From Actinomycetota bacterium (GTDB taxonomy: Bacteria; Actinomycetota; Acidimicrobiia; Acidimicrobiales; Ilumatobacteraceae), in NCBI GenBank assembly GCA_030645675.1, contig JAUSLQ010000203.1, positions 1 through 44,993 on the forward strand: a DNA stretch of 44,993 nucleotides, read 5' to 3'. Under the pieces are notes generated by a model. That model was not told the origin of the DNA. It did not search any database and saw nothing but the letters and a program-made list of their open reading frames with translations. Made by a program: the position numbers and the translations under genes. Below are positions 34,323 through 38,979 of this stretch, piece after piece; the stretch's first letter is position 1, and each line of letters begins with the position of its first letter.

Positions 34323-35462
34323 TCAGGTGATGTTGTAGCGGTAGACCTCGAGGTCGGGGTCGTAGGGCACGCGTTCCAGTGTGGGCACCTTCAGGGGCAT
34401 GCTGACGACCTTGTCGCCAACTTCGTCCCAGGCCTCGACGGTGTCCCCCTTCACGGCGAAGCGATGGATGATCCGATCGGTCGACACCGCCAACAGCAGC
34501 GCCGCCAGCAGCTCCTTGTCTTCGCCGTTCATCGCGCGCTTGTAGGCAGTGATCGCAGCGCGGGCGCCGGGACCGAACAACATCTTCAGGAAGTCGTCGC
34601 TGGCCACATGGATCGGCGGGATGTAGTACACGTTCGGTTCGAGCCCGAACTGCGGGTACAGCGGCAGGCCGACCTTGCGGACGTGGACGAGGAAGTCGAT
34701 CGGGTTGTCGTCGCGCACCTCCGCCGGCTGGCTGAGAAACCCGAAGGATCGGATCTTTCCGATGCAGTTGCGCATGCAGCGAGGCTGAAATCCCTGCTCG
34801 ACAGCGGGGAAGCAGAAGACGCACTTCTCGGAGATGCGAGTGGTGTGGTTGTAGAAGATCTTCTTGTACGGGCAGGCCTCGTAGCAGACGCGGTAGCCGC
34901 GGCAGCGTTCCTCGTCGACGAGCACGATGCCGTCCTCCGGTCGCTTGTAGATCGACTGGCGCGGGCAGGCCTGCAGGCACGCGGGGTAGGTGCAGTGGTT
35001 GCACACCCTGGGCAGGTAGAAGAACCACATGTCGTGCGGCAGCGTGAGGTGGTAACGCTTCACCGTGATGGACACGTTGACCTCGTCCTCACCGCGGTTC
35101 GGGTACGCGTAGTCCATGTCGGTGGGGGTCCAGCCGATGTTCTTCTCCCCGACCGGTGCGGCCTCGAAGATGGTCTTGCCCGTGTACGTGTCGCCGTCCC
35201 AGTGCTGGGGGCCGAGCAGGTCGAGTTCTCGTGCGTCCCACGCGAGGGGGTAGGAGCCCCATGGTTTGGTCTCGACGTTGTTCCACAGCATGTACTCCTG
35301 GCCGTTGCCCGACGTCCAGCAGGTCTTGCACGCCATGGTGCAGGTCTGGCAGCCGATGCACTTGTTCGTGTCGAACACCGCCGCCGCCTGGCGTTGAGGG
35401 CGCGACTCCTCATACGGGTACTGCATCGTGCGGTTCAGTTGCCAGTTGAACACCTCAGGCAT
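34323..35462 (-). CDS. four-cluster iron-sulfur beta subunit (NarH/NxrB-like)
   Basis: Four cysteine groups lie in 379 residues: CIGCQTCTMAC (C35-C45), CNHCTYPACLQAC (C154-C166), CRGYRVCYEAC (C187, C193, C197) and CVFC...CMRNC (C214-C233). In the third group Tyr190 replaces a cysteine, as Trp does in NarH, predicting one [3Fe-4S] beside three [4Fe-4S] clusters. The CRGY-type motif is found in NxrB and relatives. No signal peptide is present, so it is presumably exported with alpha by the Tat system. The start overlaps the alpha stop by 8 bp. Confidence 0.94.
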   Translation of the reverse strand: MPEVFNWQLNRTMQYPYEESRPQRQAAAVFDTNKCIGCQTCTMACKTCWTSGNGQEYMLWNNVETKPWGSYPLAWDARELDLLGPQHWDGDTYTGKTIFEAAPVGEKNIGWTPTDMDYAYPNRGEDEVNVSITVKRYHLTLPHDMWFFYLPRVCNHCTYPACLQACPRQSIYKRPEDGIVLVDEERCRGYRVCYEACPYKKIFYNHTTRISEKCVFCFPAVEQGFQPRCMRNCIGKIRSFGFLSQPAEVRDDNPIDFLVHVRKVGLPLYPQFGLEPNVYYIPPIHVASDDFLKMLFGPGARAAITAYKRAMNGEDKELLAALLLAVSTDRIIHRFAVKGDTVEAWDEVGDKVVSMPLKVPTLERVPYDPDLEVYRYNIT

Positions 35463-38400: not shown

Positions 38401-38979
38401 CTCGTGGCTGACCTTGACGAAGTCCTCCTTGCCACGCCCCTCGCGATACTCCAGCGGTGGCTGACCGTCTGCCTCGCGCGGCATGCCATCGTCCACCCAC
38501 CGCATGAACCCGGACCGCACGTAGCAACCCTTGACCCGCCGGTCGCTGTACATGCGACGCACGTACGCGAGGCCCGACACGCACGCCCGCGGGTCCCAGC
38601 GATTCGATGCCTGGTTGCCGTAGAGGTCGGTCGTCTTGTGGTAGCCGAAGGAAGGGTCGGCGTAAACGGCAACACCGTTCTTCACGCTGGCCCGCAGCAG
38701 GCACCCATGCGTGTCGTTCGGCGCGCACAGGTAGTGATACGTGCTGTCAGGGCGATAGAGGTCGCGATACACGTCCTCCCACCCACGGTTGGGGTACGCA
38801 GCGAGAGGGTTCGCGATCGGCTCGATCGGTGCCAGCATCGTGAGTTGACCCGCGAGCTGGGCGCTACCGACGGCACCCGACATCACCCCCAGGAGGACCG
38901 CCGGTGAGGCAGCGAACAGCTCTCGGCGCGACACGCGCTCCTGAGCCGACGACCGGTGCGGAATGGGTTGCTGTGCCAC
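35455..38979 (-). CDS. type II DMSO-reductase-family catalytic alpha subunit (NxrA/NarG-like)
   Basis: The 1174-residue molybdoenzyme starts with GTG at 38979. A Tat signal (VSRRELFAA, 16-24, plus hydrophobic stretch) predicts export. [15 protein letters not shown] (292-306) aligns with the NarG segment that holds the molybdenum-binding Asp, here D294, which marks type II. [20 protein letters not shown] is the next MoCo segment. The N-terminal FS0 ligands are H82, C85, C93 and C133, with a C-x7-C spacing (CAPNDTHGC) instead of the C-x3-C of NarG. Size and sequence recall NxrA-like enzymes of nitrite oxidisers and anammox bacteria. Nitrite oxidation or nitrate reduction is most consistent with the island; chlorate, selenate or other oxyanions are possible. 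Confidence 0.93.
   Translation of the reverse strand: [1174 protein letters not shown]

Follow-up and report, generated by a model that had tools for sequence, protein, structure and literature searches.

An NxrABC-type operon of the clade sister to canonical nitrite oxidoreductase on an integrative element of an actinobacterium

The operon and its catalytic subunit

The stretch of DNA analyzed here, referred to as the window, is 44,993 nucleotides long (positions 1 to 44,993 of contig JAUSLQ010000203.1, assembly GCA_030645675.1) and comes from an actinobacterium of the family Ilumatobacteraceae. It contains an operon for an exported molybdenum (Mo) enzyme related to nitrite oxidoreductase (NXR) and nitrate reductase (NAR). 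The reading favored here, by a modest margin of confidence, is that of an NxrABC-type enzyme of the clade sister to canonical NXR, which sits on the outside of the membrane and works chiefly in nitrate reduction. Statements taken from the literature follow excerpts of the cited papers. The operon and the genes next to it are as follows.

35455–38979 (−): alpha, the NxrA/NarG-type catalytic subunit; open reading frame (ORF) of 1174 residues with a twin-arginine translocation (Tat) motif. Sites: C85, D89, C93, and C133 at the iron–sulfur site FS0; D294, Mo ligand; N88, opposite Mo; T331, M559, and K938, pocket
34323–35462 (−): beta, iron–sulfur subunit of NxrB/NarH type; PF13247 above cut-off, TIGR03478 at 265 bits, below cut-off
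33399–34313 (−): gamma, EbdC/NxrC-type heme b protein; PF09459 and PF10518 above cut-off
32657–33397 (−): delta-type assembly chaperone of the NarJ/TorD family; PF02613 above cut-off, TIGR03482 below cut-off
39055–39801 (−): MobB, molybdopterin-guanine dinucleotide adaptor; TIGR00176 above cut-off, PF03205; start not settled
39727–40176 (+): Rrf2-family regulator; PF02082 and TIGR00738 above cut-off
31293–32522 (+): TIGR04053 radical SAM/SPASM protein; 477.8 bits, cut-off 395

The alpha ORF proposed in an earlier note on this DNA was confirmed, and H82, C85, C93, C133, and D294 are found at the numbers given there. The Tat signal it called is seen as a twin-arginine motif at the N-terminus (VSRRELF, read by eye). 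The genes for beta, a heme b gamma, and a chaperone lie directly downstream on the same strand, as it had described.

Compared with all solved structures, alpha matches Kuenenia NxrA (7b04) best by sequence, with 871 bits over residues 38–1167 and 41% identity over 935 aligned residues. The runners-up are PcrA (198 bits), ethylbenzene dehydrogenase EbdA (131 bits), and NarG (111 bits). Kuenenia NxrA is itself about 40% identical to the Nitrotoga and Hydrogenobaculum enzymes (PMC8387239). An AlphaFold2 model of alpha was built from 35 related sequences and has a mean pLDDT of 83.5 and a pTM of 0.86; its confidence is low at residues 1–59, 329–335, 560–565, and approximately 941–974, pocket loops included. 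Foldseek places this model closest to 7b04 (TM 0.89/0.93), with PcrA next (TM 0.62/0.81). Pfam recognizes only the general molybdopterin oxidoreductase domain. Nineteen NCBIfam families match, all below cut-off, and these include narG, ebdA, and the type II dimethyl sulfoxide (DMSO) reductase group.

Alpha is practically certain to be a periplasmic NXR/NAR enzyme, that is, an NxrA in the broad sense, because its full-length match to NxrA, its fold, and the trees described below all exceed what is seen with other type II enzymes. The resemblance to NxrA is thus stronger than the earlier note had claimed. The other subunits and sites agree with Kuenenia NxrABC as well, in the FS0 ligand set of three Cys and one Asp, the Mo-ligating Asp, the substrate Asn, the Lys at 938 (917 in Kuenenia), and the Met and Lys at the heme-ligand columns of gamma. 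The window differs from Kuenenia in having T331 and M559 for N312 and E527, in its gene order of A-B-C-D, in a gamma that is probably a lipoprotein, and in belonging to a separate sister clade.

Two other assignments of alpha were rejected. The NarG model gives 129 bits against a cut-off of 1084, and C85 and D89 stand where NarG has the H-x3-C-x3-C pattern. For the Clr/Pcr/Ser/Ddh/Ebd type II group, TIGR03479 gives 302 bits against a cut-off of 985, and ClrA, the named member placed in a tree, falls outside the clade.

Phylogenetic placement

Relatives were collected by scanning the genome_contigs collection with a three-row alignment, and the best 80 of 108 were kept. The resulting alignment has 90 rows: the 80 relatives, the window, Natronococcus occultus, and eight outgroup rows. 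A first maximum-likelihood tree was computed from 53 rows after 37 near-duplicates and fragments were dropped. A second tree of 32 rows, with bootstraps and a simpler model, leaves out ClrA, L013, and Natronococcus. Nine of the 33 sister rows (fragments) and 27 of the 47 canonical rows are outside the trees and were assigned by identity.

Both trees contain two main groups, and the window is joined to NXR with full support. One group is canonical NXR (Nitrospina, Nitrospirae, Brocadia, Kuenenia, and others). The other is a sister group that holds the window together with Acidimicrobiia, Armatimonadota, Chloroflexota, Nitrososphaerota, a euryarchaeote, Acidobacteriota, Myxococcota, Nitrospirota, and a proteobacterium, and in the first tree also Natronococcus. 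The sister clade has support of 99 by the Shimodaira–Hasegawa-like approximate likelihood ratio test in the first tree (24 rows) and 100/100 in the second (15 rows). Four Actinomycetota sister rows form one branch in the second tree (90/77), and six form one in the first (97). Membership of the window in the canonical clade (Nitrospira, Nitrospina, and anammox bacteria) was rejected: forcing four Acidimicrobiia rows into that group gives p = 1e-58 in the approximately unbiased test, the group having been named after the tree was seen.

ClrA lies outside the window's group in the first tree, and ClrA, L013, and Natronococcus are on long branches there. The earlier note had named placement with enzymes of a known non-nitrogen substrate as an outcome that would speak against its reading. 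No such grouping is seen; in the first tree these enzymes are represented by ClrA and L013 only, both long-branched. For PcrA and EbdA the comparison was one of score and fold, outside the trees, and SerA and DdhA were not among the compared enzymes. The alpha relative of Natronococcus occultus is 47% identical to that of the window and is on a plasmid. Two SAR202/Chloroflexi rows (L060 and L061) go with the canonical side only weakly, with support of 56 in the first tree and 80/75 in the second, and may stand at the split of the two clades. Worth recording is an acidimicrobial locus (L077:9929-13447, genome FR_1) that encodes an NXR of the canonical clade with an Asn/Glu pocket, so that both kinds occur within the class.

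A clade sister to canonical NXR is present in a tree published in 2018 (PMC6050957). It contains the NxrA of Nitrotoga, a nitrite oxidizer in culture, the characterized periplasmic nitrate reductase of Hydrogenobacter thermophilus, and diverse bacterial and archaeal proteins, and functional data on it were described as sparse. The hot-spring Chloroflexota nitrite oxidizers Nitrocaldera and Nitrotheca, along with Nitrosediminicola, are placed nearer to Nitrotoga than to Nitrospira and Nitrospina and have similar nxrABCD operons (PMC11009272). Matched by description, the window's clade is most probably this Nitrotoga/Hydrogenobacter clade, given its position beside canonical NXR, its diverse bacterial and archaeal membership, and its gene order. 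Tat export, predicted for the window, is a further shared trait. The excerpts mention no mobile element for the Nitrotoga-type enzymes. This sister clade is a meeting point of nitrate reducers and nitrite oxidizers.

FS0 iron–sulfur site

The FS0 ligands of Kuenenia NXR are C67, D71, C75, and C115, a coordination called unusual; NAR and ethylbenzene dehydrogenase have His where Kuenenia NxrA has C67 (PMC8387239). These four residues align one to one with C85, D89, C93, and C133 of alpha. The spacing in alpha is C-x3-D-x3-C. It equals the H-x3-C-x3-C spacing shared by NarG and EbdA, with His replaced by Cys and Cys by Asp. The earlier note had given the ligands as H82, C85, C93, and C133, with a spacing unlike that of NarG. 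This part of it does not hold, and the apparent oddity of C-x7-C arises because H82 was counted as a ligand in place of D89. A novel FS0 motif was accordingly rejected, C-x7-C being the published motif of NXR.

Position 82 is not conserved in the sister clade, where it is His in 18 rows, Thr in 9, and Val in 4 (n = 31); the canonical rows have Thr in 46 and Ala in 1 (n = 47). Judged by these columns, H82 is no FS0 ligand. Where the alignment covers the site (78 sister and canonical rows), C85, N88, C93, and C133 are kept in every row and D89 in 77. This conservation is partly built in, as one of the two patterns used to fetch rows was Y[LC]C[AS]PNDT; C93, C133, and D294 are outside that pattern. 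The counterpart of Asn88, N70, is a proposed substrate binder in NXR and is Ile in EbdA (PMC8387239).

One sister-clade fragment from Geothermarchaeota (L106:3042-4472) reads CAPNCTFCC, with Cys for the FS0 Asp.

Active-site pocket

Four active-site differences between NXR and NAR are listed in a 2025 review (PMC12300631): Glu527/Ala542, Asn312/Thr259, Lys917/His1092, and Asp71/Cys53. The window has Met559, Thr331, Lys938, and Asp89 at these positions. Counting rows with a residue, Thr is present at 331 in 31 of 31 sister rows and Met at 559 in 29 of 29. The canonical rows have Asn (43), His (3), or Met (1) at the 331 position and Glu at the 559 position in all 47. The SAR202 pair has a mixed pocket of Asn and Met. 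At position 295, directly after the Mo-ligating Asp, all 31 sister rows with a residue have Leu, and 45 of the 47 canonical rows have Gln. Only the sister group and the SAR202 pair have Met559; the residue is Ala in NarG, Lys in the haloarchaeal enzymes, and Tyr in ClrA. The combination of T331 and M559 in place of N312 and E527 is a concrete signature and a candidate marker of clade or of direction. A Nitrotoga Mo-site pattern ending in QM was also tried. It is absent from the rows with residues there, and the indexing of the pattern may be off.

Thr331 and Leu295 are as in five NarG-type rows. The cytoplasmic NarGHI enzymes (E. coli, Thermus, and Streptomyces) are like the window in the type II Mo-ligating Asp, Thr at 331, Leu after the Mo ligand, and a NarJ-like chaperone. 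They differ in overall sequence (approximately 23–26% identity in aligned parts), in an FS0 site of three Cys and one His, and in His at 938. NarGHI is also not known to carry a Tat signal, and NarI takes the place of a heme b gamma.

Gene order and membrane anchoring

Gene order across loci was determined by targeted tblastn. The order A-B-C-D, with all four genes detected, is present in the window and in 17 of the 33 other sister loci. Three loci (L046, L051, and L116) have A-B-C with no chaperone detected, and Natronococcus has A-B-chaperone with no gamma detected. The remaining sister loci are truncated or have only alpha; L115 and L128 represent one contig. When a canonical locus has a recognizable gamma gene, it precedes alpha or follows the chaperone. 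The exceptions are L083, with A-B-C and no chaperone found, and the SAR202 pair (L060, A-B-C-D; L061, A-B-C).

The mobB gene is upstream of alpha and adjoins the operon in the congener L040 as well. The Rrf2 gene is divergent from mobB-nxrABCD and is in the same place in L040, and the beta subunits of the two loci are 92% identical. The TIGR04053 gene is convergent with the operon, and L042 and L096 likewise have a homolog close to theirs.

The heme of Kuenenia gamma is ligated by Met155 and Lys305 (PMC8387239). The corresponding columns of the window's gamma, M137 and K291, are invariant in the rows with a residue (Met in 37 rows, Lys in 35), and both are taken as heme b ligands on the strength of these aligned columns. 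The gamma subunits of the window, L040, L041, L042, and L096 start with a twin-arginine motif and, after it, a lipobox-like Cys (read by eye; VGGC in the window). Gamma is therefore probably a Tat lipoprotein that would tether the complex to the outside of the membrane.

On the Natronococcus occultus plasmid (L039:12001-15494), the sister-clade alpha gene is split over two frames, and a CGCGG ribosomally synthesized and post-translationally modified peptide, a NorB-type protein, and ric are nearby.

The integrative element

The features that define the element are as follows.

40601–41701 (−): tyrosine integrase of the island; PF00589 above cut-off
41827–41900 (−): tRNA-Gly(ccc), insertion site and homology breakpoint
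3209–7561 (−): relaxase-helicase of TrwC type on the opposite side of the island; PF08751 and PF13604 above cut-off
10647–11588 (−): ArdC-type antirestriction protein; PF08401 and PF18818 above cut-off; start not settled

The integrase adjoins tRNA-Gly(ccc). Four congeneric stretches have DNA homology to the window that begins within a few bases of the 3' end of this tRNA gene. Beyond it, the DNA is 75–88% identical to the congeners (longer matches). Left of the breakpoint nothing aligns, over congener flanks of 0.7, 2.6, 9.6, and 9.8 kilobases. The findable parts of one congener's DNA left of the breakpoint are on two other contigs of the window's own genome (C239 and C44) at 69–76% identity. 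No second attachment site was found in the window, nor in stretches of C239 and C44 searched with exact words of at least 14 bases. The integrase, the relaxase, and the breakpoint at the tRNA end show that the operon sits on an integrative element at tRNA-Gly, which agrees with the mobile island proposed earlier.

DNA homology between L040 and the window is restricted to parts of 32714–40030, that is, the operon, mobB, and the Rrf2 gene; therefore, this block behaves as a cassette. The alpha gene is present in 6 of 221 genomes of the family, the window's own included, and one congener has an ortholog at 79%. Horizontal spread, one of two possibilities raised in the earlier note, is supported by this patchy presence, by the insertion at tRNA-Gly, and by the mixture of phyla and domains within the clade.

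The conjugative element of Thermus also places nitrate respiration genes on a transferable element. It carries a NarG-type enzyme, and its host and integration are unlike those of the window. The host and mobile setting of the present enzyme were not found described in the literature searched, whereas the family and its FS0 motif are already known. The main interest of the enzyme is thus its host and mobile setting, plus the clean pocket signature of its clade.

Direction of the reaction and alternative substrates

A nitrogen oxyanion is very likely the substrate of the complex. Three genes of the island lean toward nitrate reduction.

20273–20959 (−): RIC (YtfE/ScdA-type) di-iron protein of iron–sulfur repair; TIGR03652 at 221 bits, cut-off 204.7; PF01814 and PF04405; start not settled
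21034–21843 (−): YwiC-like membrane protein; PF14256 above cut-off
22339–23088 (−): DUF1971 domain protein; PF09313 above cut-off; start not settled

YwiC presumably adjoins narGHJI in Bacillus, and we take the DUF1971 protein to resemble YeaR. Further points in favor of nitrate reduction come from other loci and genomes. NirK-family matches (TIGR02376) of at least 100 bits, a line drawn afterwards, are present in 14 of 23 distinct sister-clade genomes and in 1 of 9 canonical genomes. These genomes were picked for carrying alpha, and the counts are uncorrected for relatedness or completeness. Two of the 34 sister loci (L044 and L062) have a NirK-like gene close to alpha, and one canonical locus has a weak match (56 bits). 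The Natronococcus operon has a NorB-type protein (PF22085) and ric nearby. A NarG above cut-off is present in only 1 of 9 distinct acidimicrobial carriers. No RuBisCO was found in the window's own genome or in 5 of 7 other carriers; of the two matches, one is above cut-off. The published sister clade includes the characterized Hydrogenobacter thermophilus nitrate reductase (PMC6050957), and Thr331 and Leu295 are shared with the NarG-type rows.

Several points weigh against nitrate reduction. All 8 outgroup rows have Thr331 and 7 of them have Leu295, ClrA included. By these alignments both residues are common in type II enzymes, with canonical NXR as the one that deviates, and they carry little weight for nitrate reduction. 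M559 is absent from all NarG and canonical rows, and K938 and D89 are as in NXR and unlike NarG. At the curated NirK cut-off the contrast disappears, with 5 of 23 genomes of the sister clade and 1 of 9 canonical genomes above it. The NirK-like protein of the window's own genome scores 162 bits against a cut-off of 296 and is on another contig. A nitric oxide (NO) reductase of the Natronococcus type, the only type searched, is absent from this genome (2 of 32 genomes were positive). The genome is in 296 contigs and approximately 80% complete, which makes its absences weak evidence. It encodes cytochrome c domains (PF13442, two above cut-off) that could accept electrons, and no electron partner was recognized adjoining the operon. 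Sequences of Nitrotoga, Hydrogenobacter, and Hydrogenobaculum are not among the best 80 of 108 relatives. Lastly, the Nitrotoga NXR belongs to the same published clade (PMC6050957), and NXR works in both directions (PMC8387239 and PMC6050957). Because of these two facts, clade and fold do not fix the direction.

On balance, nitrate reduction is somewhat favored as the main direction of the complex. Its odds were lowered slightly because Thr331 is in all outgroup rows and NirK is without contrast at the curated cut-off. On this reading, alpha would receive its Mo cofactor and FS0 cluster, assisted by the delta chaperone and MobB, and would be exported by Tat with beta riding along, as the Tat motif and the chaperone suggest. 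Gamma, the probable lipoprotein with Met/Lys-ligated heme b, would hold the complex on the membrane and trade electrons with a c-type cytochrome or quinol system. The electron path would run from heme b through the iron–sulfur clusters of beta to FS0 (C85, D89, C93, and C133) and Mo (D294), with ligands placed by alignment to the solved structure. Nitrate bound opposite N88 would become nitrite. The NirK-like enzyme encoded elsewhere in the genome may convert nitrite to NO, and the RIC of the island may handle NO damage. The operon, its regulator, and mobB would travel together as a cassette.

The reverse assignment, a nitrite oxidase, is rather unlikely. Such an enzyme would convert nitrite to nitrate outside the cell and, in the manner of Nitrotoga, supply an oxidase with electrons by way of cytochrome c, for energy or for nitrite removal. 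The place of Nitrotoga in the sister clade speaks for it, as do the A-B-C-D order shared with Nitrotoga and the thermophilic Chloroflexota nitrite oxidizers, the NXR-like FS0 Asp and K938, and the cytochrome c domains; some nitrite oxidizers also have NirK (PMC11009272). It is opposed by the lack of RuBisCO, the only carbon-fixation route searched, by the absence of the canonical N312 and E527, and by RIC on the island. The excerpted literature that joins Acidimicrobiia or Ilumatobacteraceae with NXR terms ties no NXR to these groups.

A broader version of this alternative is unlikely. In it, the actinobacterium (probably of Ilumatobacteraceae) would have gained a complete, bidirectional NXR able to oxidize nitrite by way of the integrative element, Rrf2-mobB-nxrABCD would be a plug-in that crosses phyla, and Met559 with Thr331 would be a third pocket type. 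If true, nitrite oxidation would be a trait moved between distant phyla by a self-contained cassette, with a pocket distinct from both NarG and canonical NXR.

Action on another oxyanion or an organic substrate (chlorate, perchlorate, selenate, or hydrocarbon hydroxylation), as a relative of the type II DMSO reductases, is quite improbable. In its favor are the versatility of type II enzymes, the uniqueness of M559 within the set of enzymes compared, and the 302-bit match to the type II model TIGR03479. That score is far under its cut-off, and Asn88, the counterpart of the proposed substrate binder, is kept. No chlorite dismutase was seen among the 30 window proteins in a Pfam scan, the one search made for it. 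A new substrate had been the other possibility raised in the earlier note. It is not supported: alpha does not group with ClrA, PcrA and EbdA are more distant by score and fold, and some neighbors on the island are related to nitrate and NO.

A misbinned contig or dead operon is highly improbable, the fragmented and incomplete assembly notwithstanding, as the four operon frames are open, the DNA past tRNA-Gly matches the congeners, and one of these has the ortholog noted above.

Marker-gene surveys that equate any NxrA-like match with nitrite oxidation could miscount this mobile actinobacterial member.

Other genes of the window

A possible truncated hemoglobin (19779–20324, −) adjoins RIC; its match to Bac_globin is 18.2 bits, below the cut-off of 21. 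A second molybdoenzyme cluster is present on the island at 14039–19730 (−). It is composed of a cytochrome b with a NarI match below cut-off, a NasC/Fdh-like catalytic subunit (776 bits to NasC, cut-off 1100), a ferredoxin-like protein, a Rieske protein, and a SLAC1-type channel. A cytochrome P450 (29715–31289, +) adjoins the nitrate cassette, and its best NCBIfam match is TxtE, a 4-nitrotryptophan synthase, at 96 bits against a cut-off of 500. Near the contig start, at 870–3096 (−), are a GmrSD_N/HNH nuclease and, beside it, a relative of EcoRI-type adenine methyltransferases (PF13651, 461 bits).

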